Source: Erodium maritimum
Taxonomy: Eukaryota > Streptophyta > Magnoliopsida > Geraniales > Geraniaceae
Length of the DNA: 64,000 nucleotides
Assembly: GCA_963921825.1 (NCBI GenBank)
Contig: OY997596.1
Location: 59,222,754-59,286,753, forward strand
Direction: 5' to 3'
Shown here one piece after another: positions 926 to 64,000 of the stretch. The notes below the pieces were generated by a model. That model worked only from the letters and a program-made list of their open reading frames with translations. It was not told the origin of the DNA and did not search any database. Each line of letters opens with the position of its first letter. Position 1 is the stretch's first letter. The translations under genes and the position numbers were made by a program.

Positions 926-1323
926 GTAAAATGATTGGGTCGCGCACATCTGTCGAAAGCAAAAGGACACGCGTAGGTACCAGCGGGTGGCTACGATTAG
1001 ATGGACGGCTGAGATATTATCCCGTATTCGGTAGATCGACGTCACGCCAACTGGACTTGTCGGATCGTCTTCTACCTCGTGCCTGCCCCGAATCGGGGAC
1101 GGGCAGGCTGCCCGACCCGGTGGGGCCAGGTACGATTAGTGGGGCCTACAAGGCGTTTTTAAAGCAGCTCTCGGAGATGAGCCAGAGATCGATTCCTCTG
1201 TTTCTGTTTCCATTTCTCTGAAGCTCTGTTTTGCTCTGTTTTGAATCGTGATCGTTGATTAGATCATAATCGGGTTAAATTTTTAAGCTTTAATCGATTT
1301 TGGAAGAGGAATTGGGATTTGTA

Positions 1324-2751
1324 ATGGCTGGGATTTGCTGTGGCGTTGTGGGTGAGAGTGAGACCGGAGCTCCGGTTGAGTCCAGCTCGAGAACCTCCCG
1401 GCGCCGGAGAATGGAGATCCGGCAGCTGAAGTTTGTGGCGGATATGCCGGCGATGGCGCCGGTTGAGGAGAGCCGGAAGCGGCAGAGGGTTGAGGTTTTA
1501 TCCCGCCGGTGCGAAAACGCCGTTGAGAACTCCGATCAGAAGAAACCGGTAGAGGAAACGAAACCGTCTGCGGCGGAATTGACGGCGGCGGAGGAGGAAG
1601 TGACGGCGTTTGACCGGCCGAAGTTCGGGTTGACCTCCGTCTGCGGCCGGAGGAGGGACATGGAAGACGCGGTTTCGATTCACCCATCGTTTTGCAGTGA
1701 AATCAAAACCCATTTCTTCGGAGTCTTCGACGGCCATGGATGCTCTCATGTAATTACTCGAACACGAACCTTAAAAGAGATGAAATTTAAAACAAAAAAC
1801 AGAAAAAGCTTATATTTTTTTAGTACCCAATTCATGTTTTCGTGCTAATTTTGTGCTAATTCTGATTCTGATTCTTCAGGTGGCGATGAGATGTAGAGAC
1901 AGGCTTCACGAGATCGTGAAGGGAGAGGTGGATTCCGGCGGCGGCGAAGCTGCCGTGGAATGGAAGGACACGTTGGAGCGAAGCTTCGAGAAGATGGATA
2001 AGGAGGTGAAGGAGTTCAGCAGCGACGTGTCCACGACCCCGAGCTGCCGGTGCGAGCTCCGGACGCCGCAGTGCGACGCCGTCGGCTCCACCGCCGTCGT
2101 CGCCATCGTGACGCCGGACAAGATCATCGTCTCCAACTGCGGCGACTCCCGCGCCGTGCTGTCCCGGAACGGCGTCGCGGTCCCACTCTCCTCCGATCAC
2201 AAGGTGGGGAATCTAAATTCAATTTTTAAAATTCGATCTTTTTGTGATTTTCGTACGATTTGGGGTTTTTTTTGCTGATTTTAATTTTCCGTTCATCGGC
2301 GCAGCCTGACCGGCCGGACGAGTTGATGCGGATCGAGAACGCCGGAGGGCGCGTGATATACTGGGACGGAGCGCGTGTGCTCGGTGTTCTGGCGATGTCT
2401 AGAGCCATCGGAGACAATTACCTGAAACCGTACGTGATATCGGAGCCGGAGGTCATGGTCATCGACAGGTCGCCGGAGGACGAGTGCCTGATCTTAGGGA
2501 GCGACGGTTTGTGGGACGTGGTGTCCAACGACACCGCGTGTGGGGTGGCGCGTATGTGCCTGAAGGCCCAGAAGCCGGCGTCGCCGCCTTCTTCGCCGGG
2601 GAGCGGCGGTTTGGTCGCCGGCGGCGACCTGGAGAGCTCCGACAAGACGTGTTCCGATGCGTCGATCCTGCTGACGAAGCTGGCGCTGGCGAGGCATAGT
2701 ACGGACAACGTGAGTGTCGTGGTGGTTGATTTAAGGAGAGACGATGTGTAG
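1324..2751 (+). CDS. PP2CA: Clade-A protein phosphatase 2C, PP2CA/AHG3 type
   Basis: Exons are 1324-1749, 1880-2203 and 2305-2751, with GT-AG introns in phase 0, giving 398 residues. The protein is a Ser/Thr phosphatase that inhibits SnRK2 kinases and is itself inhibited by ABA-bound PYR/PYL receptors. The N-terminus [11 protein letters not shown] is that of Arabidopsis PP2CA/AHG3. Visible motifs are [17 protein letters not shown], the metal site FDGHG (Asp136), [26 protein letters not shown] and [10 protein letters not shown]. The Trp that contacts the ABA receptor gate is present in VIYWDGARV (about residue 270), so this is a canonical co-receptor, unlike AHG1, which lacks it. The start was chosen because it matches the family N-terminus and because the in-frame upstream Met at 1300 is not conserved. 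The upstream region is rich in ABREs. Confidence 0.95.
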
Positions 2752-9400: not shown

Positions 9401-10859
9401 TTGATTCTGCATCTTGAACAATGTATCAAATCAAAAGCTTGACTTGGGTACAATAAACGATGTGTTGCAAATGCTGCAGCCATTGCAGGTACACCACGCT
9501 CGAGAGCAAATTGGATCTGGTTCTCATGAACATCTTTGGGGGCTATGGACATGGTTGTGACATTTCGCGAGAGTAAATACGCACCAAAACTTGCCACACC
9601 GCATCCAACATCCAAAGCAACTCGAGTGTGTTCACCAAATTTAATGTCGGGGATCATCTAAACATAAACATGACAAAACAATGAGGTTCACAGAGAAAAG
9701 ATACATAACCAATTTGCTTCACTTAAAACCCACTTCAAGACTTAAGACGTTAGCACGTACTAACCTGAGATATCTGATCCAAGTACTCGCCTGCCCCATG
9801 TATAAACTGTGTACCACCTCCAGGAAACTTGAACTTGTCCTTCTCCCTCGAAATCCAGTTCTGCCCCCCTTTATCATCAACTAGACGTGTATGGGGAACA
9901 TTGCTGAACCATACCTACAACACCGTAATATTTATACTCCTAATTCAGACATTTTTTGTAAGAACTAGCTAGAACAATCATGTCGACTCATCAGATTGGG
10001 ATACATGGCAATAATCATTCAATAACTTAACGAGAAACAGGGTCATCGGATCAAAAGTTAGAATTTTCACTGTTAATTATAGGTATAGACACTACATCTA
10101 TTTACTTGCAGCGGAATTACCCAAAAAATCAAGTCAATCATACATAAGATGATAAGAATCATAATCCTCTCTTCTGCAAGCAAAAATATAGCAATGTTGT
10201 GAATATAGCAATACCTCGTCCCTACTTCTGGGCCAAGGGATCGGAGTTTTGTACTCCTTTGGCGGTGGAATCAAGCAATTAAGCTCCTCCCCCTTCTCCG
10301 GGCAATGCCGCTCGAACTTCTCCCCCTTCTCAGTCGAGTTCAGCTTCCGAATCGCCTCCACGTTATCCAAACACGGTATATACTCCCTCATACTCTCCGG
10401 ACAAAGCTCAAACTTCTTCACCTTCACCCTCTCAGAACCGCCGCCCCCAGCCTCCGTCTCCACCGTGCTCCCATTCCCCCAATTCTCCACCACGCTGGGA
10501 TCGAACTCCCCGACCTCGAAATCGTCCACCATCGTCCCGTTCTCGTCCACGATCCCGAACTTCTTCGCAGCCGGAGGCTGCGGCGGCGGCGGCGGGACCA
10601 AAGCCGGGGCTAGGGTTTTATCGGGGACAGATTGGGCCTCGTTCTGGGAAATCATGGCGGTGACATTGAAGGACTTGTTGAGGTTCGGCGACAGCGTCAC
10701 CGTCGAAGCTTGTCCGGCGCTGTTGAAGAATATGAGCTGCCCGTAGCCGTCCGACCAGTGCTTCCCGAGGAAGAAGAAGGCGACGGCGACGCAGAGGAGC
10801 GTCGCGATTTTGATCGCCGCCGTCGATTTGAAGAAATCGAGACCGTTGGACGGCTTCAT
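6409..10859 (-). CDS. PMT11: Golgi S-adenosylmethionine-dependent methyltransferase, PMT11 type
   Basis: Nine exons in transcript order: 10859-10215, 9914-9765, 9657-9387, 8741-8631, 8212-8053, 7646-7389, 7293-7171, 7022-6945 and 6616-6409. All introns are GT-AG, all phases fit, and the product is 667 residues. The family (DUF248/Methyltransf_29) comprises type II Golgi proteins linked to pectin methylation and cell adhesion. Visible features are a single N-terminal membrane anchor (about residues 18-33, [15 protein letters not shown]), a proline-rich stem, [14 protein letters not shown], the SAM-binding loop [44 protein letters not shown], the second half [17 protein letters not shown], and the C-terminus [19 protein letters not shown]. 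The sequence agrees along its whole length with Arabidopsis PMT11 as I remember it; PMT12 is an alternative name. No defect is seen. A MITE lies in intron 4. Confidence 0.95.
8418..8574. mobile_element. Palindromic MITE in PMT11 intron 4
   Basis: Terminal inverted repeats of roughly 47 bp (GGTGTTATTCAAAGTGAATA at the left, TATTCACTTTGAATAATACC at the right) enclose about 60 bp. The ends are followed by ATAA on both sides (8414-8417, 8575-8578), a possible short target duplication. It is non-coding, and the near-perfect arms suggest a recent insertion. Confidence 0.75.
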
Positions 10860-11109
10860 TGATTCGGATCTCGAGCTCAGATCTCAGATCTTCTCAATTT
10901 TTTCCCAAACATTCGACTGTAATGCAGAGCGTGGAGTGAGAGTGAAGGTTTTGTTTATTCCGGAGATTGGAGCTTGCAGATCCTGGATCAGTAGAGCTGG
11001 CAGAGAACACCGACGGTGACGGATATAGAGTCACGCGCGGGTGAGATAGTCTCGTTGAAATCTTCACAGCGTTCGTGCGGGTGAGGGTTAGTTTAGCATC
11101 GACGGCCAC

Positions 11110-12052: not shown

Positions 12053-14340
12053 TTTTTTTTTTGAAATGGATAACCGAAGACTTTCATTAATATCAATAGG
12101 GAATCAAACAGGATGAGGCGTGACCATCTCGTGTTTCAGATGTATGTCCGAGTCGACCGTAGCAAGCCCGTCGCTCATGGACCCGTAATAATAGCCCACT
12201 TGAAATCGTGGGCACAAACTCAAGATAACTCCTTACTACCGTTTCATCATAACGAGGCATAAAGTAAAAAGTTCTAAAACCAGCAAGAAATAAAATGTTC
12301 CAATGATAAAACAGATAATAAAGACATAGATAAATAAATGTTGCTGAATGTGCAGGCTGCCCGGGACCTCCCAGCACTGGCTGTCCCGGGTCTGTAGGTA
12401 TAGTCTGAGGCCGACTCCACCCACCCCTGCCGGGACGGTTCATTCCTCCATCGGAGGCAGCTGTGCCTCCGCCTTTTCTTCTTTCCCCTCCTTCTGGTTG
12501 ATCGGCCACAAGATCTGATGTTGGGAGGTCGGGTCACCCAGCGGCTTCTTCGACTCCGGTGGAAGCGCATACAACGATCATCTTCTAGTCTTCAGGGTGG
12601 TCATCTTGCCTTTGCCTCGGCTGGGCCCTCCTTTCCCTAGTCCTTCATGGGGATCTTTTTGCTGCCCTAGTGGATCTTTCTCCTTCCCTTCCCCGGTTAC
12701 TGTGATAGCTCCGGGGTCAGCTCGGTCCATAGTGTCAGCAGCAGGTTGGTCGTTAGCCAGATTGTCAGACTTCGTGAACCCCGGTGGCGGTGTAGAGGCT
12801 CTATGCCCACCCTCCTACAGTACATTGGTTACCCCTCCTGGGTATCATTAGCCAAATGGTCAGACTTCGGGATGTCTGCGCCGGATGGATCTTCGCCCAT
12901 AGTGATTTCCCTGGATCGAATCAATAGGTTCAGTGACAGGTCACTCAGGAGATAAGTGATAGTCGGATGTGTCGTCGTAGGGGGTGTATTCAAAATCGTT
13001 CTCAGCAGCCGGTCCACATCCAGCTGACTGGGGGCCAAGATAGACTGGTCATACCGAATCTCTTCCCGACCAATTCCCGGCAACTGAGTCGGGCAACCCG
13101 AGATCCTATGGGTCAGCATTCCACACATGCGGCAAAAGTCCACTACCCTCTCATATTGCAGTTCAATCACAACATGTGTAGTGGTACCTGGGAATCTGAG
13201 ACGGAGCCTGCGCCGTAGAGGTCGATGCAGCTCCATCCGAATCCTTAGCCATAAAAACGTATCCTCCCGTCGAGTCGACGGGATCGGGGCCGAAGTGACC
13301 TGGGTGCCTATGCTGCCTGCAATGAGACCGCGGATATAGTCATTCCAGGCTCCCCCCGGGATATTGAGCGCCCGGACCCTGAGCTCCACATGGTTGAAAT
13401 TAAACTCGGTGGCCCGGTCAAATTGCCTAAGCGGTTCCAGTAGTAGGGGAAAACCCTTGAAGCTCCAGGGACCCCAGTGACGGACATTTTCCATCGTCTC
13501 GGCGGACGGGAAGTGGTAGCATGTGACCTTCGGAGACATTAACTCCACTTGAATCCCAGTCACTTTCCATTTTCGTAGCATCACCGCGCAGTCGATGTTC
13601 TGGTTGTAGGGTCGGTCCCTTACGACCTTGGCTGCGAGGGAGAACTGGTACGTGCCCTTGGTGAACAGTGGAACCCCCACCTCCGAGACCACCACTTCGT
13701 CATCCTCGTCCTCCCAATCCGGGGTCGGGGATATAGGGTCGATTGGATCTTAGATGGAGAACCCGTCAAGCCTCTCCCGCTCGAAGAGCCAGATCTCGGG
13801 ACCGGTATTCGCTCCGACGGCGGGAGGTATCGAGACACCACCGTCGAGGAGAGGGGCCGAGGGAGGGATGGCAGATCCCGGTGGGCCTCCCTCGCCGTTG
13901 GTGGGTACCCGGCGTGAATCGGGGCCGTCGTCAGTGGCGATGGAAGCATGGCTACGGCCTGGGGCTCACCCGGTTTGTCTTTCAGATCCAGGAGGCTCGA
14001 CGGCCGCTGGGGATCCGGCACTGGGAGGGCTGGATCTGGCTCAGGCAACGGCCTGAGAGCGTCGCCGTGGTGGGGGCCTCGTTGGTCGGAGATCGCAGGG
14101 TGGTGAGCGTCATCTGCATGAGGTTAAATCTAGTCGGAGGACGTCATTTCCGGCTTGGGATGACGAGGGATGGATAGCTCCGGCGTCGTAGAGGTGGAAG
14201 TGACAGTGGGTGACGGAGGGGGCGAAGATGGCGCTGGAAACACGAGCAGATGCGGCGGGGAGCCACAGAGAAGAGGGGAAGAGAGATGGTGGTCGGCGAG
14301 AGAGGTAACGCCTCCAAACTCCTTTGTATTTTATTACCAA
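12053..14340 (-). mobile_element. L1-type LINE with ORF1 but no ORF2
   Basis: On the minus strand the element runs from a C/T-rich 5' leader (about 14340) through ORF1 (13695-12829) into a 3' UTR. It ends TTAATGAAAGTCTTCGG..CATTTC followed by an A-run (T-run at 12053-12062 on the plus strand). This 3' end is typical of plant L1 elements. Only about 770 bp separate the end of ORF1 from the tail, so the reverse transcriptase ORF is absent. The 5' end is approximate and no target duplication was resolved. Confidence 0.8.
12829..13695 (-). CDS. LINE ORF1 protein: DUF4283 domain plus CCHC zinc knuckle
   Basis: The 288-codon frame encodes a nucleic-acid-binding LINE ORF1 product. The N-terminal half carries the DUF4283 pattern (YQFSLAAKVVRDRPYN, then WSFKGFPLLLEPL and the stretch around ALNIPGGAWNDY). 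The C-terminal part has the zinc knuckle FCRMCGMLTHRISGC (CX2CX4HX4C). An in-frame stop lies about 55 bp upstream of the first start-like codon, so the N-terminus is lost or shifted, and the element is probably not functional. Confidence 0.75.
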   Translation of the reverse strand: MVVSEVGVPLFTKGTYQFSLAAKVVRDRPYNQNIDCAVMLRKWKVTGIQVELMSPKVTCYHFPSAETMENVRHWGPWSFKGFPLLLEPLRQFDRATEFNFNHVELRVRALNIPGGAWNDYIRGLIAGSIGTQVTSAPIPSTRREDTFLWLRIRMELHRPLRRRLRLRFPGTTTHVVIELQYERVVDFCRMCGMLTHRISGCPTQLPGIGREEIRYDQSILAPSQLDVDRLLRTILNTPPTTTHPTITYLLSDLSLNLLIRSREITMGEDPSGADIPKSDHLANDTQEG

Positions 14341-21803: not shown

Positions 21804-22099
21804 AGTAACTAAAAATCCGTGTAGATAGTTTTAAGGAACCACCCGTAACAGAAATTAAAAGGTTAATTCAAAAACATTATCTTGAAATCAATACATACTA
21901 ACAATAGGAATAAAATCATTTAAATAAATGAAAATAATTTGGTTTTAATTCGTTTTTGCTTGTCAATAAATTATGTCATAGTTTACGATACCAAAACAAA
22001 GGAAATATTAAGATGCTATGAATAAAGACAATTGTCTCTCTCTTATATCTACACGTCCCGATTCAAGCATCACCCAATCACTCTTATCTTCTCTTAGTC

Positions 22100-22711
22100 A
22101 TGCCGATGATCCACCTTAATTTCCTCCTCTTCACGGCGGCGCTGCTATTATGCGCCGTGTGCTCACAGTCCGCCACACCTTGTCCCAACTGCGGCAACAC
22201 CCCCGTCCCGTACCCGCTGAGCACCGGGCCCACCTGCGGCCACCAGGACTACAAGATCAGCTGCGACGCGGGTACACTAAACTTCCACTCCCTCAACACA
22301 ACCTACCCAATCAAATCGATCAATCCCGAGAGCCAGGTGATGCTGATCCAGCCGCCCAGCTTCGTCCCCAACACCTGCGTCTCATCCGATTTCCGCTTTG
22401 TTGGTCTCCAGCTCAACGAGAGCCTCCCATTCAATGTCACGTCCAGCACAACTATCATGCTCCTCAACTGCACCGAAAGACTCCTCGACTCGCCCCTCAA
22501 CTGCACCGAAATCAGCTCGTGCCACGCGTACATCGACGCCGACGCGTCGGCTTCCGCGTGCAGGGACTCGCCGGTTTGTTGTACGTTTCGGGTCGGTCCC
22601 ACGGCGTCGCATCGGATCCGGATCCGGGAAAGGGGGTGTAGTGCCTACACCGGTTTTGTGAACCTGAACCCGGGATCGCCGGTTAGGATAATACCAGACC
22701 CGAATGTGTAG
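22100..22711 (+). CDS. WAKL20-like ectodomain protein without kinase
   Basis: An open frame of 203 codons starts with a signal peptide (MPMIHLNFLLFTAALLLCA). It continues through the cysteine-rich GUB_WAK_bind domain: PCPNCGNTPVPYPLSTGP, GHQDYKISCDAG, LNESLPFNVTSSTTIMLLNC, SSCHAYIDADA, SPVCCTFRVG. It matches the first half of WAKL20-like receptors well and has no defect up to the stop at 22709-22711. The WAK-associated C-terminal domain, membrane segment and kinase are missing, and sequence after the stop is not related. It could be a secreted remnant, a truncated pseudogene, or the first exon of a gene whose rest is lost. It is the best preserved member of the array. Confidence 0.7.
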   Translation: MPMIHLNFLLFTAALLLCAVCSQSATPCPNCGNTPVPYPLSTGPTCGHQDYKISCDAGTLNFHSLNTTYPIKSINPESQVMLIQPPSFVPNTCVSSDFRFVGLQLNESLPFNVTSSTTIMLLNCTERLLDSPLNCTEISSCHAYIDADASASACRDSPVCCTFRVGPTASHRIRIRERGCSAYTGFVNLNPGSPVRIIPDPNV

Positions 22712-29510: not shown

Positions 29511-29581
29511 TAACCTTTGCCGCAAGCGGACGTGAACCAGTTACCGGTATTATTTAATTCCCAGTTTCGCGTCCGCCAAAT

Positions 29582-29613
29582 GCCACGTCAGTCATGTGGC
29601 GGTACTATAAATA
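29582..29613 (+). promoter_or_regulatory. VTC1 core promoter: CCACGTCA motif and TATA box
   Basis: TATAAATA at 29606-29613 follows CCACGTCA at 29583-29590. Only 92 bp separate the TATA box from the Harbinger target duplication, so everything further upstream is transposon sequence. Confidence 0.75.
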
Positions 29614-29801
29614 CAGCTCTCCGACGAACCGTTGAGACTCGGAAGAGAAAATAAAGAGAAATCAAGAGATACGCGAAGCTACATAAGCTCACCGGATCGA
29701 TTCGGTTCCTGATCCTGATCCTGCAAGTTCTGACTCGCCTGGATTGGGATTCTAAGCTCCATTACTCGGATCGCTTCTGGTTCTCATCGGTGAGCTACAA
29801 G

Positions 29802-32283
<2,482 letters not shown>

Positions 32284-33622
32284 AAGATAAGGTATTTGTT
32301 GTGTTCAGATAAGTAGTGTACTTTAATTTAATTTGTTCATTTCTCTACACAAAGTGTAAAAGTTCAGTCAAGTTTGATGTGTATCCAGGATTCATTTCTT
32401 GTTATGCAAGTCATGACATGATGTTGTTGGGTGTGAAATGTGTAGCTTTACAGCTATGTAAAAGAAGAAATAAATTATGAATTTTATTTTTGCTTATTTT
32501 GTGTTTAATTTAATATTTGCAAGATGAGCTTCTTTTTCAGACCTTTCTTTTTGCACATTAAAGCCAATGGTTGGTGTGATATGCATATCCATTCCACTAA
32601 TTCTTCAGCATATTATTAATAGCCTTTTGATCCCAAAAGCATTTTGATTCTGCATAAAGAAGTGATTTAAAAGCACCTGACACCTACCAATGACCTTTTT
32701 TTTGAAATACCTACCAAAGACTTGGACATGATCAGGTACTCAATCAAACACTGATTATGCTCTTAATCAAGCATCATAACTTGGTAGCTGGTACTATATA
32801 ATGAATAGAATATCACTACAAAATGAATAAGAGGTTTATAAAAAATTAACTGTAAATAAGTATTGAGGAGTGCTATGCGAATTTTACGATAATTATTTCT
32901 GACGTTGTGTTTCATAACACTGACTCGAAATGTTTAGTTTTTATTCGTATAGATACTAAAATATACTTGGCTCAATTAATTTTGAATCTCAACATGTGTA
33001 GTTTGATTATTTTTTAATTAAAATAACCATTATCATAGTCCGTTAGTATTTATATAACACTTATAATAATATTATCAATAAATACTATAACTGTCACGAT
33101 TTTTTTTAATTTTTTGAGGCAAAAAATATATTAGCAATATTTATTATTATATTGTTTAATTATGAACAATACAAATAGAAATAAAAAAAGTGACATTAGT
33201 AATTATTATGTAATATATGTTTATTAATAATTTAAAAAAATACAAAAACCCATTAATCACCGACTATTCCCCGACTAACGTCTAGAAGCCTTGTCATTTA
33301 ACAAATGTCTAACATTTTTACCTTGTTATTAATAAGGGTTAAATGTAAAAGCTTACTCCAAAGTATCGGTTATGAATAGTAAACTATCCAAATATCAAAT
33401 CAAGTAGGTTAAGTTTCGGTCACATGTTGTTTATATGTTTTTATGAATTGAAAATTATCAAAATTTGGTCTAATTTTTTTTCTAATACGTGACCAGTGAT
33501 CTAATCAATACTTTAGGGTAGTTGTTCGTGACCAATACAATTGGGTATGTTTTTACATTTAACCATACTAATACTAATAAATAAAGAAATGAGAAGTGTC
33601 CACGTAAGCATTTGGTCACAGT
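32284..33622. other. Intergenic region VTC1-RPL5
   Basis: The VTC1 3' UTR extends to about 32480 (AATAAATTATG near 32469 is a likely polyadenylation signal). The rest is AT-rich and empty. An AACCCTAA telo-box-like word at 33623-33630, just before the RPL5 start, is reminiscent of ribosomal-protein promoters. Confidence 0.45.
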
Positions 33623-33688
33623 AACCCTAAAGCCTTCATTTTTCCAATCGGTCGTCTTCCCCAACTATACAGAGTAGAACCAGAGGAA

Positions 33689-36238
33689 ATGGCTTTCTCT
33701 GCAATCCTCCGCAAATCGGAATCGTACCTAGTTCCTTTCGCAACCCGAGTCGTCGGAGTTGAGCGAAATCAACACCGTGCGCTCTTCACTGCTCTCAATC
33801 ACCCGACAAACATCTCCAACACCTCTGGATCCAGCCGGAGCTTCTCGGCTTCCGGCGAGCCTTCTGAGGCCGGTGGCGGCGATGGGGAGAGTCGGAATGC
33901 TGGTCGGGTGAGTTTTATGGCCTTCGATTAGGTCGCTTTTCTGGGTTTATGTTTGTTTCCTGAAATCATGAATGTAGGTCTTTGTTTCTGTTTGTTTCCT
34001 GAGATTGTGAATGTGAGTTTCCGAGAAAATGATTCGTTGGGTTGATGGTCTTCTATTTGTTTTGCTTCATGTGAATCGTATCAGTTTCAGCTCCAAGTTC
34101 ATTTTTGGCCTTCAATCCAGTTGTGATGCCTAGTTCAGATCGAATCAACCATCAGTAAAGAAAGAACTTAGTTATCTATAAACCTAAGAACATACAGATT
34201 CATCAAACTGGGATTTTTATTGTTCATACCATGTTAAAACTGGGTTGATTGCTAAAAACTACATTATGCATTGCCCACTTGCGAAAAACTACATTATGTA
34301 TTGTCCACATTTTAAAACTACACTATCTTTTGACCACGGTCATTTACTTACACAATTTAGAATATTCCGTTAAAATTAGGGACGTGGACAATACATAAAT
34401 GTAGTTTTTCGCTCGTGGATAATACATAATGTAGTTTAAAGCGTGGACAATACGTAATTTAGTTTTTCGTCGCAAGTGGACAATACATAATGTAGTTCTT
34501 AGCAATTAACTCGTTAAAATTTTCCATTTTTTCTGTTCCCATGAAAACCAAATTTCTCTGAAACTACAACTTGTGTTCTGGGAATAATTACAACCCGAGT
34601 TTGCAATAATGTTGGTAAGTTTTTATGCTGAGTGTTGTAGTAGAGTTTTGGCTTGACTTTTATGATCATCCTATGTTTATAGAAACACTATCTATTCTAT
34701 AGTTATAGACCTAAATTTCCTTGCCAAAATTATCAGTCAGTACAAAAGTTTTAGGTTACACGTTAAGGATTAGGAGTTAGGCTTCACTTCACCCTCATGT
34801 CCTCTTGTGCTCCATTGGCTAAGTTACTCATAGGGTAGTAACTAGGGAAAATTGAAAAAAAAAAAGTACCCCGAGGTATTCCTTTTTGCAAGTTGTAGCT
34901 CTCTTGTTTGATAATTGCAAAAAAATAACTTTAACATGCCTTTTTGTTGCACTTCGTGTAAATTTGCTTATAAACGACGATTTTCCCATTTAAAAAATAA
35001 TAAGTAAAAATCCAAAATTTTCATTTCTCCTAGTTTTCTTCCGCTGTGTACGTCCAAAGAGGAAGAAAAGTAAAAGAGGTGAAAATTTTGGATTTTTTTT
35101 GCTTTTACTTATTATTTTTTAAGTTTAAAATTTCAAAGGTAAAATCCTCGTTTTGTAACAAATTTACACAAAATGTAATGAAAAGCGTAAAGGCAAGTTC
35201 AGGGCACTTTTTTGTAAAAAGCAAATAGGGCTACAATTTGCAAAAGGTGGATACCTCGGGTTCAGGGTACTTTTTTGCAGTTATTCCTACTAACTAACTT
35301 GTAGGAGAACATTGCTGGTAATCCATTGATAATTGCCTTATTGAAGGGTAAGTTTGGACCTTGCATGTTAAGAAAAAAGGACACATATTTTGGAACGAAT
35401 GGAGTAATAAGATACAAATGAGATGAATTGTGTTTATATCAACCATCAAATTCTGTAGGCACATGTATCTTTCTCTCCCTAAAATTGATTTACCTCTACT
35501 TATTAATCATAATCGACCAAATACATGTTCAATAGAGGGATAATCTCACTCAGCTACTTTTAAGTATGCACCTTTCTCAACTAACTACCTGAACTTTAAA
35601 AAGTTTTTGACAACTTTTGGGTGTGAAATGTTGAAAATACCCTCATTACAAAATCTCGTCTCTATTTTTGGTAGGTTGGAGGAATTCCAGATAGCATATA
35701 TTTTCACTATGAAGATGTATTACGTCAAGATCTTCTACTCAAATTGAACCGCTCCAACATTACTCAAATCCCCCGAGTGAAAGAAATAAGAGTAATGCCA
35801 AAGGTAACTGATGAAGCTACGACCAAGACCGGAAGATTAGCTATGGAGATTTCATGCAGTCAGAAGTTCACTCCATCAGAAAGCGGTTCTGGGAAATCTC
35901 AACCCAATACCTTTGTTGGATCTAAAGACAGAGGATATGTTCCTGATGTTATCAGACCGACCACACTACGAGGTCAGGCCATGACCAACTTTTTGCTCAG
36001 GTTGTTGACGGTAATGTCCATGTCTGATTGTAAAGTCAAGATAAGGGACAACATGGTTCATTTCTGGATGGACAAGGAGTTCTGTGAGTTTTCACCTGAA
36101 CTCGAGGATCATCTGGAGATTTTCGAACATGTTCGAGGAGGGTTCAATGTTAGTATTGTTACTACCGCTGAGACAAAGGAAGAGACTAAACTGTTGTGGA
36201 GTGGTCTTCTGCAGAAGGATGAGGGAGAAAGTTTATGA
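33689..36238 (+). CDS. RPL5: Nuclear-encoded mitochondrial ribosomal protein L5 with a presequence derived from MAM33
   Basis: Exons 33689-33907 and 35675-36238 (1.77 kb phase-0 intron) give 260 residues. Exon 2 encodes the whole plant mitochondrial uL5 protein: [72 protein letters not shown] and the end [14 protein letters not shown]. This gene is normally in the mitochondrial genome. Exon 1 (73 codons) is a basic, Ser/Arg-rich targeting peptide; 30 of its first 42 residues equal those of the MAM33 gene at 38377, including [10 protein letters not shown] and FTALNH. Exon 2 begins VGGIPDS, matching VEDIPDG at the start of MAM33 exon 2, before RPL5 sequence begins. The frame is intact with no stop, consistent with a functional transferred gene. 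Two MITEs lie in the intron. Confidence 0.93.
34242..34510. mobile_element. Foldback MITE 1 in RPL5 intron 1
   Basis: The left arm, GTTGATTGCTAAAAACTACA at 34236 onward, is the inverse of the right arm ending TGTAGTTCTTAGCAATTAAC at 34509. The word GGACAATACATAATGTAG is repeated several times in both orientations. It is non-coding and about 270 bp long. Confidence 0.75.
34850..35287. mobile_element. Foldback MITE 2 in RPL5 intron 1
   Basis: Left arm AAAGTACCCCGAGGTATTCC and right arm GGATACCTCGGGTTCAGGGT plus TACTTTTTTGCAG are inverted copies. Inner segments (AATAATAAGTAAAAATCC / GCTTTTACTTATTATTTTTT) also pair. It is about 440 bp long, with ends approximate. Confidence 0.7.
35540..35650 (-). 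repeat. MITE arm related to 46105-46393
   Basis: The reverse complement shares AGTTGTCAAAAAC, GGTAGTTAGTTGAGAA and GTAGCTGAGT with the element in P5CS intron 19. Only one arm is present, in RPL5 intron 1 about 25 bp before exon 2. Confidence 0.55.
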
Positions 36239-36875
36239 GATGTTAGGGTAGTGAAATGCAAAGGAGTTGATTTTTTTTTTTTATTCTCCAGAGGGATTGG
36301 CCTGTGATTCGTGATGTTCATCATGAATGTGACAAGTTTATAGAAGAGAAGAACTGCTTTGGCATATGAGTCACATTTTCATTTCACTTCCCTGTGTTTT
36401 GAGGGTTCATTTGCATGGTAATGAACTATTTTTCTTTGATTTTTTTTGTCAAGTTAGTATTATGTCTTGGTTTAACAGTGAGATCATTTATCATAAGCTT
36501 TTGGGCTATTCATAGATTGGAGGCTGTGACTCTTATTTCTCTGGCATCTCAATGGTAGTGAAATTGTGAAGATTAATGTTTGATTAGATAAAAGTTAGTA
36601 ATTATGGTATGCTTTTACCATGTCATATTTGTCAGGAATAATTGTAAAAACTTATTTTGAGTATTCATATTTTTATAATTGTAAAAAAGTACTACCAAAT
36701 TGTTTCTTATTGTACTTTCTATAAATTTGTTTTAGAACGATGGAAATTTAAATCTAAAAAAAATAACAATTTAAGAATGAAAAATCTAAATTTTTGGTTC
36801 TTTTAAATTTCTTAGGATATTAACATTTGGATGCACACTTTACTTTACAAAAAATATAATAAACATTCTTTATTA
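36239..36875. other. RPL5 3' flank
   Basis: Sequence after the RPL5 stop; the 3' UTR probably ends within the first 350 bp. I found no leftover of MAM33 exon 2 or 3 here, so the duplicated part of MAM33 seems to stop at the fusion point. Confidence 0.45.
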
Positions 36876-36890
36876 ACTTATTATGCGTGG

Positions 36891-38172
36891 AAAATCGGTT
36901 TTTAGTCTCAGAGGTTTTAGGGTTTCCCCCTCTTTCTTTCTCCCGCAACCACCATTCTGAATTTATTTCCAATCTTCCTCCCCACCATGGCTGTTTCCTC
37001 CAACTCCTTATCATCAGCCTCTCGAAGTCGTACGTCCAACCTCCTCACAACTGTGGTAAAACCGACCACGGTCAACGTCTCGCTGCCCCCCGGAAGCACT
37101 AATCTTAGTTGTTTCCAGGTGGGGGAATCGGAGACACCGGCGCCACCTTCGACAAAGGGAGCCTCCGTCCTCCTCACCCTCCGAAGGAGCCCACTACAAG
37201 AAAAAGCAGTAATCCTCTTACGTCGCTTTTCACCGAACCGTTGGGAGTCAGATCAGATCCATGAACCACAACCACATGCATGGTCGTTGCTCCGTTCCCA
37301 GACCACGATTCCGATCGTCCCAGTGCACATGGATGTACTGCCTGCTCATACTCCTCCGACGAGGAACGCCCTAGATGCTATCTCAGACCACTTGGGAGGG
37401 GTGTTTCCAGAGAACGACGAGGATGAAGATGAAATCATAGTGGTTCCGCGTGACGCGGTTCCGACCATGTCTAATGGTCGATACCGGCTCTCTCTCGTGG
37501 CTCGATTGGTCACCGAAGTTCGTTATATCCAAAAGATTCTGATCGAGATGATGCTCAAGCACTAACAGGTTAATGATATGAGGGTGGATGTCCTCTCAAA
37601 GAAGACCAAAGCAAGGGCCAAGACAAGCTACGTGTACGCTCGAACATCCCACGCAAAGCTCAAGAGGGCACTGGGGGCAACGAGTCAGCTATCAGACCGT
37701 TTCCAGCTCAGGGACGAGGAATAGACTGAAGATGACTCAGAATTGGTGAGGGCTGCCAAGCAGCCCCACCAAGCTCCATGAGGCTGTTTGAACCCTGAGA
37801 GTTAGATGTCTGGTGGTCTACCCCTCGTGACCCAGGACCGAAAGTGACAACATTCGTTTGGGAACATAGGATTCCACATAAGAGGATTCAATTTACTTTT
37901 TATACTTTTATTCTCTTAGTTGTTTTCAGTACGGTTGTGGACCATGGTTTATTATGTTTACTTTCGGTTATTTTAATTTTCTTGATCGGGTAGATCGTAG
38001 GGATAATAATCGTTGTCTAGGATGCAAACTAGGCTATTTCTACGGGTTCAAAAGCGTCGGATACCTACGAAAGACTCGGACTTATTCTACTCTCAAGACT
38101 TTTTAGTCATACTTATAAAGCTTCACATGTATTGGTAATGCAGTTCATCGTTCGCCTTTTCAAAAAAAAAAA
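36891..38172 (+). mobile_element. Internally deleted L1-type LINE between RPL5 and MAM33
   Basis: Target-site duplication ACTTATTATGCGTGG (36876-36890) / ACTTATTATGTGTG (38173-38186) encloses 1.28 kb. The copy starts with a leader, has a Met at 36987 opening a 192-codon frame, and ends CATCGTTCGCCTTTTC plus 12 A. The frame ends with GRYRLSLVARLVTEVRYIQK, a match to the start of the DUF4283 region of LINE ORF1 at 12829-13695. After that the sequence soon passes into 3' UTR. The rest of ORF1 and all of ORF2 are missing. The readable duplication suggests moderate age. Confidence 0.8.
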
Positions 38173-38313
38173 ACTTATTATGTGTGTGGTCATGATTGGT
38201 GCAGTTCCAATGAGAATGCTGACATGTCAGTTGATGATTGGACGAGCTGATGTGTCCAATTATGATTGGATATGCTCATCAGCCAGCAAGGTGAAAATCA
38301 TAAACCCAACTCC

Positions 38314-38341
38314 TATAAAGTATAAACCCCTTAAACCCTAA
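38314..38341 (+). promoter_or_regulatory. MAM33 core promoter: TATA box and telo-box
   Basis: TATAAAG at 38314-38320 and AAACCCTAA at 38333-38341. The telo-box is typical of plant genes for translation and mitochondrial biogenesis. A related AACCCTAA occurs upstream of RPL5 (33623), probably co-duplicated. Confidence 0.6.
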
Positions 38342-38376
38342 TTCCTATTTCGCTTTCCCCAACTCGAAGAGCAAAG

Positions 38377-40141
38377 ATGGCTTTCTCTGCAATCCTTCGC
38401 AAATCGGCTTCAACCCTAGTTCCTCTTGCGACCCGAATCGCCCGAGTCCAACGAACTCACCACCGAGCGATCTTCACAGCCCTAAATCACCACACCAACG
38501 TCCCACAGAAGCCGTCTCTGAACCCTTTTGTACCGGTCCGCAGCTACTCTCTGGTCAAGAGTGACGAGTCTCTTCTAGGGGTGCTTGAGTCGGAGATCGA
38601 GTATGCTGAGAAGTCCGACGATCACGACCGGGTGAGTTGGTTCTTCGTTCTCGATTCTGGGTGATTTTCTGCTAAGAACATGGTGTTTTTTTTTTGATTT
38701 TCATGTCTAATGTCAAGCTTTCGGGTGCAGTAAAATTATGGGTATTTTCTTTGTTCATGATTTGGGTTGTGAATGATCCGAAAAAAATATAAACTTTGCA
38801 CTTACAATCCAATTTTAGCTTATTGTTGGTTTGCTGAGAAAAAAGCTGCTTAATTGCTGGACATTTTGTAATACCTTAGATAGAGCATAGAGTTATAAAT
38901 TTATAATGCTTAGATTGTTTGCTTTCTGATGTGTGACGTTGAAGGGTTTTATTTCAGCAAACTAATGATTATGATTGCAGTTTATTGAGTTTAATTTGAT
39001 TTAGCTATGCTAATTGCTCATATTAGTTTAAATGGAACTGTAGAAGAGAGGTGGAGCTTGCCTTTGCTGTTTGAAAGTTTGAAGTTGTGTATGCTTTTTT
39101 GTTCCTAATCTATTTAATGAATTCTTTAATTACTCCCAACGCTTTGATGGGAGATATTGGTTCACTGTGAGTTTATTGAAAATCTTATCCACTGATTTAC
39201 AGTATTTGTATCGGATAGGACTCTGCCAAAGTACTATCTATTTAACATGATCAATTATTATGGGTAGGTTGAAGATATTCCAGATGGGTTCCCTTTTAAA
39301 ATTCAAGATAATCCCACTATTCAAACCATAACATTGACAAGAGAGTATCAAGGTCAAACCATTGAAGTTGAAGTTCAAATGCCCGAACTCGTCTCTGGTG
39401 AAAATTGCGAAGACAATGTTGCTGAGGATGATGATGAGAAGGCCCGCCAATTTGGCACTCCCCTGGTTGTAACCGTGTCCAAGCCAGGAAATCCTTCCTT
39501 GGTGTTTACCTGTACCGCCTTTGCCGATGAGATCGCTATAGACACTGTAACTGTGCAGAATCATGAAAACAGTGAGGATCAGTTAGCCTATGAAGGCCCT
39601 TACTTCGCGTAAGCTCCTCTTCTTTTTTCTTCATGATCTACATATCACTATGTTACGGTCCACATGTGAGTCTTAATAGTATCCACAGTGGAAATCGCCT
39701 CAGTCGGGGCCAAGGAGAGAGGATTGGGGGTGAAAGGGTGAATTGGCCAGGCTATAGTCACTTCCTAGGCGATTCGCCCCCACTATAGGTGATGTAGCCT
39801 CTAAGTGATATACACTTGGGGTTCACAACCTTATAGGCTAGTCTTTTGTATCAAGTGGTGGCGGGCTAATCCATCTCACATTTTTCCGATGTGGGACTCA
39901 GACTCCCATGTGGACCCTAATAAATTAACTTGTGTATCAAGCTAGAACAATTCTGATTCCTCCACTTTGTTTCCTTCTCAGGGATTTGGCTGAGGACCTG
40001 CAGAAAGCTTTCCACAAGTATCTAGAGGTAAGAGGAATCAAGCCCAGCACAACCAACTTCTTGCAGGAGTACATGATCAACAAAGAGAGCAAAGAGTACT
40101 TGTTGTGGTTGAAGAGAGTCAAGAGATTCATTCAAGCATAA
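38377..40141 (+). CDS. Mitochondrial MAM33/p32 family acidic matrix protein
   Basis: Exons 38377-38631, 39268-39608 and 39982-40141 give 251 residues. The family (MAM33, PF02330; human p32/gC1qBP) forms acidic doughnut-shaped trimers in the mitochondrial matrix and supports mitochondrial translation and assembly. The protein has a basic N-terminal presequence (about 1-55, ending near RSYSLVKSD), the acidic segment VEVQMPELVSGENCEDNVAE, the core TPLVVTVSKPGNPSLVFTCT and the C-terminal helix LAEDLQKAFHKYLEVRGIKP..YLLWLKRVKRFI. No defect is seen. Its exon 1, splice site and first exon-2 codons are duplicated in the upstream RPL5 gene. A MITE occupies most of intron 2. Confidence 0.9.
39656..39927. 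mobile_element. MITE in MAM33 intron 2
   Basis: Inverted ends GGTCCACATGTGAGTCTTAA and GACTCAGACTCCCATGTGGA (about 20 bp, imperfect) enclose about 270 bp of non-coding sequence. Confidence 0.55.
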
Positions 40142-41063
40142 ACTTTCTAGCAAAAACATTTTGGCACAGCTTTTTGTTATTGATATGAAGTCAATTTGGA
40201 ACAGTAGTTGGTGTTTTGTCTTGTATGTTATTTGGCAGTTGAGATTTGAACATTAGCTGGTTCGAGGGTAAATGTCAAAAAAGTGTCGTGAACTTTCGAC
40301 TTTGGGTAAATCGATGTTGTGATCTTTTAATCGGTGCAAGTCATGTCGTGAAGTTTAACGTCAATGTACTGTTACTAACGACGTTAAAAATGAACGACAA
40401 GTCAAAACACCCCTTTATACTTGCAAAAAAAAAACATTTGCATCCCTTTTTGTGAAATACCTAATACTTTTGTTTATATTATATGTAAAGTTAATTATTA
40501 GATTTTATTTTTTTGAGCAAGGTTATTAAAGACTACATTTAAAATAAAATAAAATTCACATCTATTTATATATTTTTAAATATAAAATATTTTCCTTTAT
40601 TGGTTTGTTAAATATAACTGAATGCAACTTTATAAAAAAAAAAAGTTCATGGACCTAATTTACAACTAAAAATGTTCATGGATTAGATCTGCACTAATAC
40701 CGTGACATCAATTGTAAGGGGGAGTGTCGATTTTCTGTCAATTTTCCAATTGACACAGTAAAAAAATAAGAGTTTTTCAGTTTTCTGGTTCGGATTGATC
40801 GTATTTTCGATTGCTTTACCTACACTTTTATGAGCAAAATAGAATTCTATTAATGATATAGAACTATAACAAAAAAGAAGATAAAAAATAAAACATGAGG
40901 GATATATAAATATGGACATTCTCATTTCTCTAGTCCTAAACAGTCTGTTGATTTAAAATCTCAATTTTAACTTTGCAAACGGGATTTGGATTCGCTGAAT
41001 TAGACCGTATAACCTCCCAAAGACCAGCTTCTGTCGCCCTTCCCTGAATATAGTTGAGGGCCT
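40142..41063. other. Intergenic region after MAM33
   Basis: AT-rich. The words GTCGTGAACTTTCGACTTTGGG (40283 onward) and AGTTCATGGACC..GTTCATGGATTAG (40643-40685) look like the two arms of another degenerate MITE. No gene seen. Confidence 0.35.
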
Positions 41064-61042: not shown

Positions 61043-62607
61043 TGACACCCTGAGAATTAACTCACAAAAAGGGCGCGGCAAGCGCACCGGTCGTCAAGTA
61101 GTATTTCGGTTCAAGTCCGGTTATCGTACCCAAGGGAGCAGTAAAACAGACACTCGATTTAAAATCCGTTAGTTAATCTGTTTCTGAAAAGATTTGTTTT
61201 TGGTTTTAAAGATGTAAATAACAGTTTGAGGTCTAAAGTAAAATAAATTGGAATCAAGTAAGAGACAAAATATCAGGTGTTTGTGAAATTCAGAGAAAAG
61301 GTGATCTAGGACTTTAACGGGGTCACAATATGACGATTAATTCGCAGGGGTTTGTGTTTACATGTGCAAATAAGGTAAGTCTAAGGTAACGGAAGTTCTC
61401 TCAGCTGGTCCTAAACATCTTTCGATCGAATTAGGTCCCTAGTATAATCTGACCACCTAGTTATTTCTAATCTGGGTGTAGTGAGACATACAACATTACG
61501 ATTCATGAACTCCTCTAACTTTCGGTTTATACGCCTATAGCTGTTACACTCGTGTTAACCTAACTTTATTAGAGACTAGATTTAAACCCGAGTTACATAA
61601 TTCTTAGTCCTTTTAGACACTCTCAGCTTTCGATTATTGAGTGCTAAAACCTAATCAACTATCAAGTGATCAATTTGATGAAGCATTAATTCCAAATTAT
61701 GTAAACAGTATCCTAAACACAAATTGCACACAATAACCACAAACTTATTGGATCAATTACTCATATTGCTTCCCCTAGCCCTAGATCAATAGAAATTTAG
61801 TTCATGGAGAAGAAGGAAAAACACAAAGATGAAAAAGAACAAGAGATAAACATAACTGAAAGGTAAAGTTGATACAAAATACCAATTCAATGATGAAACT
61901 TCAATAGTTTTGTTTCAATCCTTGTTCCTAAGCACTTCTCTCTCACCAAAACTCAAACCCTAACTCTCAATCTCTCTAAAATAATGTCCAATACAAGTTC
62001 TCCCCTTCTTAATGGATGCTCTTCTATATATAGGACTTCAAGACCTCTTTCCCTACTCCAAATAGGAATTGGAATAGGTAAATTTTGCTTTTGAATGAGG
62101 AAATTTCCTATTTTTATGCCAAACACGGAGCTGGGAGAAGGCCTGACTCGTGTGGCCCGGGGCGTGGCCCGAAATGGGCCCAAAAACGGGCCGGAATGAG
62201 GCCCGGAACGTGCTGGAATCCGGTCCGGAATGAGACCTGTAATGGGCCAGAATCCGGCCCGGAACGTGGCCCGGAACGGACCCCTTCCCGTATCAGAACA
62301 GTGACGGCCCCTTGATGAAAGTTGTAGATCTTTGAATTCTCTTCGATTTGATATATTATTTGAAGCAATTCGGAGTTCGTATGAGGGAGTTATGCCCTTC
62401 GCAAGATCAGCCAGCTTCCACAACTCCTAAAACCGGGGTTTCCTCTATTTTTGCCCTTTTTTCGATCAAAGCACCTACAAAACACAACGAGAGACAAAGT
62501 ACGAGTAAAGAGAGAAGAGTGCACCAAATTGTACAACCCCGGGACTAAAGAGCTCAATAATGTGGGCTAAAAACATCCAAAAACCGATGCATTTTATGCC
62601 TACATCA
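61043..62607 (-). repeat. LTR, right arm
   Basis: LTR of about 1.56 kb on the minus strand, TGATG..TGTCA, next to the primer-binding site. The CATTCCGGGCC-type minisatellite lies at 62150-62285. Confidence 0.85.
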
Positions 62608-64000
62608 ATACATCGCTTCGAATCAGGTAATCCTCGCTTTGTCATTGTAGCTTCTGCCAAAGACGGAGTTCCCTCTTCTCCGGCGCCTTCGCGAGATCGT
62701 CCAGAGGACCCGTGCAAGCTCTTTGTCATAAACCTCCCACCAGCAGCCAAGGAGCCTTGGATTCGTCGGTTTTTCTCCGCTCATGGTAGCGTCTCCGGAA
62801 TATATCTCAGTCGCCGATCAGTTTCGTCCGGCCGTCCCTTTTGCTTCATTCACGGCGCCTCCCCAAGTGATTGTCAGCAAATGGATTCTGTTCTGAATGG
62901 GAAATGTGTTGTAGGACGTAGGATTTTGGTCGTCCCGGCTTGGCTTGATCCTTCTCGCAAGACTCGTTCGACTTGGCGACCCTCTGTTCCCGTAAAATCC
63001 GCTAATCCGGTAGGCACCTCTGTCAGTATTGGAACTGTGGCGACTGACTTATTGTCTGCAGCCACTTCTAGTGTTATAGGCATCGTTCACAACAACCTTT
63101 CCTCAGCTCAATTGGTGGAAGCTCTGACTTCGGCTGGTCTTTCGAATTATCAGGTTAAGAGTTTTGGGAAGAGAATGTTCATGATTTCTTCGGCAGATTC
63201 GGAGAAGGATTGGTCCCCCCTTCGTCCCTCGTTTGATATTGTGCGTTCTACAGGAGAGCTCCTTACTAAACCTGGGTTTTTTAAGTGGGTTTCGGTCTCT
63301 GGTCTCCCTATTCAAGGCTGGAGCCTAGATAATTTTGTGAAGATTGGCTCCGGTTTGGGCGATGTTTTACAGGTGGTTCGATATGAGTTTGAGGGGCTCT
63401 TCTACTTGATACACCGCAAGGATCATTTAGCTACGATGAATCATGTTTTTCAGCTTGGGGAAGATTCTCTGAATCTATGGGTCGAGTCAGTCCCATTCAG
63501 TGCAGTTCCTTGCCCGGTGGCATTTTCAGAGTCATCCTCCTCGCAGGATTCTGAGTCAGCTTCGGAGACGCTATCCACTCCAAATATTTCTCCCTCACGC
63601 GAGCCCACGCGTGCAGAGGATGTTCAAATTTCAAAACGCTTATCGGATGAGGATCGTTCCCCTTTATCAAATCAAGGGTTTTAAGATTACGAAGAGTCCT
63701 TCCTTGGTTCAGGCTCTCCAACGATCGTACCTGACTCATTTTGGCTATCAGTCGTTCCAATCGCGACCCACAATCCCTTGGAGCCCACTTCTTCTCAGTT
63801 GCGTGCAACGCAAGTTACTTCAGCTTCAGGAAAACGGAAAGGAAAGGCTACTGCTCATGCAAAACCCTTTCGCGTTTCAGGCCCGTCTAAGCTCTCGTCT
63901 CCTGTTCCGACCACCTGGGATCATGTCAAACGTATTGGCTACAAGGCTCTAACGTTTGGAGGTGATGCTCGGGATCAATTCGAAAATTTTGAAGCTGATT
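62608..64000 (+). mobile_element. LINE with RRM-type ORF1, continuing past the window
   Basis: The target LINE of the LTR insertion resumes here after the second ATACA copy. The ORF1 reading frame continues to the window edge; ORF2, if present, lies outside. Confidence 0.75.
62613..63684 (+). CDS. LINE ORF1 protein with RNA-recognition motif
   Basis: The frame carries an RRM (LFVINLPPAAKEPWIRRFFS, GRPFCFIHGA, GRRILVVPAW). About 170 residues later comes the segment FFKWVSVSGLPIQGWSLDNF..IGSGLGDVL, matching the W-x-G-L-P-x-x-W-S module of plant LINE ORF1 proteins, then a Ser-rich tail. An in-frame TAA at 63682-63684 interrupts it, but the same frame stays open beyond (SGKRKGKATAHAKPF, TTWDHVKRIGY) to the window end, so the stop looks like a single nonsense change. 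The N-terminal codons are at 56075-56223. RRM-bearing ORF1 is known in plant L1 lineages; a host SR-protein is unlikely given the downstream module. Confidence 0.75.

Follow-up and report, generated by a model that had tools for sequence, protein, structure and literature searches.

For an organelle gene newly arrived in the nucleus, the bottleneck is to gain a promoter and a signal for import, and in old cases little trace of this step is often left. Presequence capture by transferred genes is already known, and a nuclear transfer of rpl5 in Geraniaceae is said to have been reported by Park et al. in 2015, in New Phytol 208:570.

In grasses, rps14 lies inside an intron of sdh2 and is likewise a transferred mitochondrial ribosomal gene that borrows the presequence exon of a nuclear gene whose product is mitochondrial; there a single gene serves both products by alternative splicing (PMC1543663), whereas in Erodium donor and recipient stand as two adjacent genes that do not share an exon 1, and the join lies within an exon. 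Transferred sdh3 genes carry hsp22 or other heat shock presequences together with part of the host gene, as in Erodium rpl5, but donor and gene differ, and a donor adjoining its recipient is not described in the accessible parts of the sources (PMC4045975, PMC8317393). Grass rpl5 was transferred to the nucleus independently (PMC5664110, PMC7145533), and the grass presequences are unlike that of Erodium, the grass forms falling within the other listed RPL5 proteins, of which 0/115 match it at E < 1e-3. Within the family itself, five protein records named ribosomal protein L5 (P0001-P0005) represent the same fusion protein and share its junction; what Erodium adds is the genomic setting, together with the MAM33 donor, the exon-2 join and the adjacency. 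No report of a MAM33 donor or of donor-recipient adjacency was found in the open-licence literature searched.

The fusion gene and its neighbour

The window, that is, the whole stretch of 64,000 nucleotides of Erodium maritimum that was analysed, contains the following features, all on the forward (+) strand.

29513..32494, +, GDP-mannose pyrophosphorylase-like gene region, found ahead of rpl5 on either chromosome and used as synteny marker
33623..33688, +, rpl5 5' leader (nuclear gene), akin to that of MAM33
33689..33907, +, rpl5 exon 1 (73 codons), comprising the MAM33-derived presequence and the first part of the N-terminal extension of the mature protein
33689..33844, +, presequence predicted to be cleaved off (residues 1-52), with the -3R motif R-S-F at its end, followed by S
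33908..35674, +, rpl5 intron 1, phase-0, matching MAM33 intron 1 in position
35663..35695, +, acceptor of the MAM33 intron plus the seven codons that open MAM33 exon 2 (V-G-G-I-P-D-S against V-E-D-I-P-D-G)
35675..36238, +, rpl5 exon 2, preceded by the phase-0 GT-AG intron and ending with the stop
35696..36238, +, mitochondrion-derived RPL5 coding part, residue 81 to the end, and the stop
38325..38376, +, leader of MAM33, akin to that of rpl5
38377..38631, +, MAM33 exon 1, encoding the presequence; the rpl5 presequence stems from this family
39268..39608, +, MAM33 exon 2, of which rpl5 retains the first 21 bases
39982..40141, +, MAM33 exon 3, ending with the stop

The rpl5 product (33689-36238) is 260 aa long and has no internal stops. 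Its exon 2 matches the plant mitoribosome protein uL5m (PDB 6xyw_Ae, E 1.7e-66, residues 81-259), and the product of 35696..36238 agrees at 62% with the mitochondrial-type RPL5 P0016. A preliminary description of this DNA had exon 2 encoding the complete mitochondrial protein; its identity as RPL5 stands, with the amendment that the first three or so codons, the original ATG included, are replaced in the alignment. Modelling gave a weak structure for the fusion (mean pLDDT 51), and its three top PDB matches, with a query-based TM of 0.33-0.38, are plant mitoribosome chains. Both rpl5 copies of the genome lie on chromosome-size contigs (C9, 62.6 Mb; C1, 158.6 Mb) and have a GT-AG intron, placing them in the nucleus. 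The gene models also bear out the coordinates of an intact MAM33 (p32) gene 2.1 kb downstream of rpl5 (38377-40141; 251 aa; Pfam MAM33, PF02330, E 1.4e-48, profile 1-212 of 212), and Pfam NTP_transferase and GMPPB_C domains were found in the upstream flank at 31342-32280. In mitochondria, rps14 adjoins rpl5; here, a Pfam search of 36239-36880 in all three forward frames gave no sign of a co-transferred rps14.

Another chromosome (C1) carries a further intact rpl5-MAM33 pair that agrees in junction and gene order, and its block also has the GDP-mannose pyrophosphorylase-like flank (blastn, four pieces in the same order, 70-80% identity). In neither block do the two genes share an exon 1. Intron 1 measures 1767 bp in rpl5-A and 636 bp in MAM33-A of the window, and 1189 bp in rpl5-B and 966 bp in MAM33-B of the second pair; in the window, two inverted-repeat elements widen the rpl5 intron. 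Between the two rpl5 copies, exon 2 has a dN of 0.009 and a dS of 0.64 (dN/dS near 0.014, 187 codons), which shows purifying selection on the protein.

Homology between rpl5 and MAM33 across the junction

The likeness of exon 1 between rpl5 and MAM33 is far above chance. As first described, 30/42 residues are identical (71.4%) and the ATG regions are nearly so, with 30/31 of the first bases from the ATG in agreement in the alignment. At the DNA level the two exons match at E 3e-27 (blastn, 79% over 126 bp), with a score of 148 against a maximum of 34 at 1036 other places in the window. Codons 43-73 of rpl5 exon 1 are weakly like MAM33 (5/500 shuffles as good). A search of the 763-Mb genome with the complete fusion protein as query scored 10 candidates; its listed exon-1 matches (E up to 10) were confined to rpl5 and MAM33, two genes of each, and the neighbouring MAM33 was the best of those listed outside rpl5. 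That the similarity exceeds what unrelated presequences share accords with the 103/120 listed plant MAM33 proteins (of 408 found) that match the rpl5 presequence at E < 1e-3, as against none of the 115 other listed RPL5 proteins, many of which are of the mitochondrion type without a presequence, so that the DNA comparisons are the stronger control.

The homology continues on either side of exon 1. For the 100 bp upstream of the ATGs, 1, 0, 0 and 1 of 500 dinucleotide shuffles were as good in the rA/mA, rA/mB, rB/mA and rB/mB comparisons (r, rpl5; m, MAM33), and 5/500 for rA/mA with 60 bp only; upstream homology beyond 100 bp (101-500 bp) was not detected in the window pair (289/500). At the acceptor and exon-2 start, 26/34 bases are shared, the best among 3610 AG sites of the window (next 20), and 0/500 shuffles were as good in each of the four A/B comparisons. 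Between these stretches the intron ends are not clearly homologous: for the first 100 bases, 34, 335, 34 and 152 of 500 shuffles were as good in the four rpl5/MAM33 comparisons, and for the last 100 bases, compared in the window pair, 366/500. The MAM33 origin of the presequence is thus supported by DNA homology across leader, exon 1 and acceptor. The fusion layout had been described as an exon 1 from MAM33 followed by rpl5; the source of exon 1 holds, and the join has to be moved from the exon boundary into MAM33 exon 2, of which the acceptor and seven codons are kept.

Functionally, the fusion appears to carry an acquired targeting presequence, as judged from its homology to MAM33 presequences and from the -3R motif, and import is predicted. 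This motif, described in PMC4986872, lies at residue 52 in the fusion and, as R-S-Y before S, at residue 57 of the adjacent MAM33, and in its strict form it was found in only 41/120 listed plant MAM33 proteins (of 408 found). The mature N-terminus of the Arabidopsis MAM33-family protein AT2G39795 was mapped after a removed Y, according to the same source (PMC4986872), and MAM33-family presequences therefore work. The MAM33 domain is absent from fusion residues 1-98, which gave no Pfam match at E up to 1; what the two genes have in common is confined to leader, exon 1 and seven codons.

Relatives, mitochondrial copy and age of the transfer

The same fusion and junction are present in California macrophylla, Geranium maderense (two forms), Monsonia emarginata and Geranium incanum (P0001-P0005), 86-89% identical to the Erodium fusion over the whole length. 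A protein search with query residues 1-79 (22 candidates scored) returned only five matches at E up to 10, all known Geraniaceae RPL5; that no MAM33 protein came back shows the narrowness of its word filter. In the exon-1 peptide tree, seven rpl5 presequences form one clade (100/100) and MAM33-A and MAM33-B another (98/85), and, with midpoint rooting, these nine presequences stand apart from 30 sampled plant MAM33 (97/92). An earlier tree without the C1 copies, with 40 MAM33 sampled from the same 120 listed proteins, agrees (97/86). The two G. maderense forms group together (92/93), and the rpl5-B presequence groups with Monsonia (93/89). Geraniaceae MAM33 was not seen among the 120 listed of 408 plant MAM33 proteins, and the donor test therefore rests on the two MAM33 genes of the Erodium genome. 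The RPL5 body tree (30 rows, 24 of them from the 115 other RPL5 proteins) places the grass nuclear copies outside the Geraniaceae clade. The transfer is old, being common to four genera and later duplicated along with its donor.

Queried with a mitochondrial-type RPL5, the assembly yielded no more than the two nuclear copies (the next match had E 0.32); no third copy was found, the mitochondrial contigs C37-C39 included. These comprise 307.7 kb, and their completeness is judged from size agreement with the Erodium maritimum mitogenome in PMC12329965. The mitochondrial copy thus appears to be lost or broken, and the gene table of the Erodium stephanianum mitogenome is likewise without rpl5 (PMC12303824). 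The preliminary description's view of rpl5 as a transferred mitochondrial gene gains from both results, two nuclear copies and none found in the mitochondrial contigs. A PF00281 profile search of the genome gave 7 matches, none of them at the two rpl5 loci.

Editing columns were 11 edited, 1 unedited and 5 other in a first screen (n=17); with five ambiguous columns dropped (82, 133, 154, 204 and 245, the sole unedited column among them), 10/12 are edited, none unedited and 2 other, yet 23/115 other RPL5 rows are also without an unedited column. Geraniaceae mitochondria show little editing (PMC1343592).

A separate observation concerns the exon 1 dS between rpl5 and MAM33, which at 0.24-0.50 (about 30 synonymous sites) is below the dS between blocks of 0.64-0.65. 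This runs against the expectation that presequence capture should predate the block duplication; the small sample, constraint or gene conversion could be the cause.

Origin of the fusion and its meaning

Taken together, rpl5 is very probably a functional mitochondrion-to-nucleus transfer with a duplicated MAM33 front end, whose donor is still adjacent. In a common ancestor of the sampled Geraniaceae genera, a copied front end consisting of the leader, the presequence exon, intron 1 and seven exon-2 codons would have been joined in frame to rpl5 from about its fourth codon, the MAM33 leader presumably supplying transcription and the MAM33 splice sites, kept in place, serving splicing in Erodium maritimum. 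RPL5 would be made in the cytosol, imported via the MAM33-type presequence and cut after R-S-F, leaving about 28 extra, probably MAM33-derived N-terminal residues on the mature protein that would enter the ribosome. The mitochondrial rpl5 would then have been lost while the donor stayed adjacent, and a segmental or whole-genome duplication may later have copied donor and recipient together. The recipient had been proposed to be a partial tandem duplicate; no MAM33 remnant was detected past the seven codons, and the duplicate may or may not have been partial at first.

Three other readings have to be weighed against this one. That rpl5 is a non-functional, NUMT-like insertion beside MAM33, with a presequence alike by chance or convergence, is highly improbable given homology that spans leader, exon 1 and splice acceptor, two intact copies with the exon 2 dN/dS reported above, no rpl5 found elsewhere in the assembly and the same protein in three other genera. 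The presequence might instead stem from a MAM33 elsewhere, the present adjacency being secondary: so many listed MAM33 presequences are similar that a lost paralogue could be the donor, and the rpl5 presequence stem is long (0.47). Yet the tree puts the neighbouring MAM33 genes together with the rpl5 presequences, no listed genomic exon-1 match outside rpl5 is better than the neighbour, and the genes are linked in both duplicated blocks, so that this origin is quite unlikely.

Somewhat less unlikely, if still doubtful, is a stage at which rpl5 had entered a single MAM33 and was served by its exon 1 via alternative splicing, tandem duplication and loss later separating the functions. Exon 1, intron position and acceptor are common to both genes, and such a stage is known for sdh2-rps14 of grasses (PMC1543663). 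Against it, a join inside exon 2 means that the acceptor and 21 bases need duplication too, and neither profile searches of the two blocks nor shuffled alignment within the window turned up remnants of MAM33 exons 2-3 downstream of rpl5. If it did occur, the sdh2-rps14 mode and the 'dispersed donor' mode would be two stages of one pathway, donor and recipient would stand side by side with a shared leader, possibly co-regulated, and on the ribosome the mature RPL5 would keep a tail of some 28 residues derived from MAM33.

For the favoured capture of a duplicated front end, the Erodium locus leaves readable a probable donor, a join placed to within a few bases, the kinship of leader and splice site, and the entire arrangement in duplicate. 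The case suggests that a transferred gene can find its landing site where a gene with a mitochondrial product has been duplicated locally, and the pair offers a testable set-up for dating the capture, the mitochondrial loss and the later divergence of the presequence from a donor that is still present.

The rpl5 fusion gene and its MAM33 neighbour

The window gene at 33689-36238 comprises two exons (33689-33907 and 35675-36238), whose open frame encodes a protein of 260 amino acids. As the preliminary description had claimed, exon 2 encodes mitochondrial ribosomal RPL5, residues 81-259 matching plant mitoribosomal uL5m (6xyw_Ae, E 1.7e-66), and downstream, at 38377-40141, lies a complete MAM33 gene (Pfam E 1.4e-48). 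The likeness claimed for the two first exons also holds, with 30/42 residues identical and 79% DNA identity over 126 bp (E 3e-27). Aligned as DNA, the first exons score 148, as against at most 34 at 1036 other places of the window. It is highly probable that rpl5 moved from the mitochondrion to the nucleus and gained a MAM33-derived presequence whose donor is adjacent; confidence is slightly reduced because the Geraniaceae MAM33 sequences compared in the donor test were the two genes of this genome.

Other features of the window
1294-2751, PP2C phosphatase frame
10134-10883, Methyltransf_29 frame
12829-13749, DUF4283 and zinc knuckle frame
22022-22711, GUB_WAK-type frame
29513-32494, GMPP-like gene (NTP_transferase and GMPPB_C domains), syntenic counterpart on contig C1
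62509-63684, frame with RRM and a weak DUF4283 match

The PP2C, Methyltransf_29 and GUB_WAK-type frames are ordinary nuclear gene surroundings, and the frames at 12829-13749 and 62509-63684 are presumably retroelement debris. Between rpl5 and MAM33 lies a 214-codon open frame (36921-37565), for which no Pfam match was found and which is possibly a transposon remnant.

A second gene pair and the extent of the captured sequence

A search of the 763-Mb genome revealed a second rpl5-MAM33 pair on C1, the window pair lying on C9. Its members, rpl5-B (261 amino acids, exon 1 ending in NVDR and exon 2 starting with VGGIPDSVYFHYEDV) and MAM33-B (248 amino acids), are both intact and on the minus strand; further splice choices likewise kept the frames open, and those matching the window genes were taken. 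A GMPP-like gene precedes the pair in both blocks, in equal order and orientation, and this gene and its C1 copy mark a duplicated block. The rpl5-MAM33 spacing is 2.1 kb on C9 versus 33.6 kb on C1, where ~1.5-kb direct repeats, 96% identical and about 10 kb from each other, point to the possible insertion of a retrotransposon. At synonymous sites the two blocks diverge by 0.64 in rpl5 exon 2 and by 0.65 in MAM33, the latter for exon 2 alone. Synonymous divergence of exon 1 between rpl5 and MAM33 (0.24-0.50) is lower than these values, an anomaly, since it should be older than the block split.

The join had previously been placed at the exon boundary, whereas the alignment puts it inside MAM33 exon 2: rpl5 matches the acceptor of that exon and most of its first 21 coding bases (first seven codons V-G-G-I-P-D-S in rpl5, V-E-D-I-P-D-G in MAM33). 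Around the acceptor, 26/34 bases are equal in fixed register, the next best of 3610 AG sites of the window reaching 20, and in each of the four comparisons between two rpl5 and two MAM33 copies 0/500 shuffles matched the score of the junction stretch. Both rpl5 genes have AGC as their seventh codon where MAM33-B has GGC, so the MAM33-derived sequence probably extends to 35695, with RPL5 starting at 35696, an exact step that we infer. Relatedness is also seen in the leader 5' of the ATG (1, 0, 0 and 1 of 500 shuffles equally good); in alignments against shuffles, no clear relatedness was found farther upstream or in the outer 100 intron bases. Codons 43-73 of rpl5 exon 1 are weakly like MAM33 (5/500 shuffles). 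Two MITE-like inverted-repeat stretches (34244-34510 and 34911-35284) form part of the extra length of the rpl5 intron, and a 40-base piece of it (34908-34947) is repeated 3' of MAM33 (40414-40453, 82.5%).

Predicted targeting and organellar context

The presequence ends in R-S-F/S in rpl5 and R-S-Y/S in MAM33, the -3R motif of plant mitochondria, which in its strict form occurs in 41/120 MAM33 proteins and is therefore not a fixed feature of the family. In Arabidopsis, AT2G39795, a protein of the MAM33 family, is catalogued among the ICP55 substrates, its N-terminus following a removed Y (PMC4986872). Because of this parallel and the MAM33-type presequence with its -3R motif, the fusion is likely imported by mitochondria and cut after residue 51-52; mature RPL5 would keep ~28 extra residues and enter the ribosome.

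C39 (42,186 bp) carries an intact cox1, while C38 (56,140 bp) and C37 (209,417 bp) hold frames of the proton-antiporter (nad) type. Their sum, 307,743 bp, agrees with the 307.7-kb mitogenome described for Erodium maritimum, drawn as three components alongside a 118-kb plastome (PMC12329965), and the mitogenome is therefore probably complete within the assembly. C40 (118,135 bp), with two further such frames, is probably, from its size, the plastome. The preliminary description had proposed looking for rpl5 in the mitochondrial genome. Searches of the assembly, C37-C39 included, with the fusion and with mitochondrial-type RPL5 found only the two nuclear genes, the next match to the latter query having E 0.32. 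The gene table of the Erodium stephanianum mitogenome likewise lists no rpl5 (PMC12303824). Long proton-antiporter (nad/ndh-type) matches inside chromosomes C8, C5 and C1 (L031, L032 and L036), with stops in 2/3, are probably organelle DNA inserted in the nucleus. The rpl5 gene carries the edited state where editing columns can be judged, in a set cut from 17 to 12 with one unedited column among those dropped; 23/115 other RPL5 rows likewise carry no unedited residue, and Geraniaceae mitochondria are described as showing little editing (PMC1343592), so that the pattern fits RNA- and DNA-mediated transfer alike.

Age and novelty of the capture

The same fusion, which the preliminary description proposed to look for in related species, is present in five database proteins, 86-89% identical, from California macrophylla, Geranium maderense (two), Monsonia emarginata and Geranium incanum. 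An extra glycine in H-V-R/K-G-G-F is common to these proteins and the window gene, and is absent from the 11 other RPL5 proteins aligned with them. The RPL5 bodies of the Geraniaceae fusions form one clade (100/100), and a midpoint-rooted tree of exon-1 peptides unites the seven rpl5 presequences in a single clade beside this genome's two MAM33, a sample of 30 plant MAM33 falling outside. There was thus a single capture, older than the split of the sampled genera and of the two blocks. Between the window gene and its relatives the RPL5 body is nearly fixed (163-174 of 178 residues), and the presequences drift (44-53 of 66-73).

Transfer of rpl5 in Geraniaceae was reportedly described by Park et al. 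2015. That a transferred gene can capture its presequence from a gene encoding a mitochondrial protein is well established (PMC4045975, PMC8317393, PMC1543663). What appears to be new here is the MAM33 donor and its adjacency, neither of which is named in a report among the matches listed from the open-licence literature. The rpl5-MAM33 pair thereby offers an unusually legible case of a known process, presequence capture.
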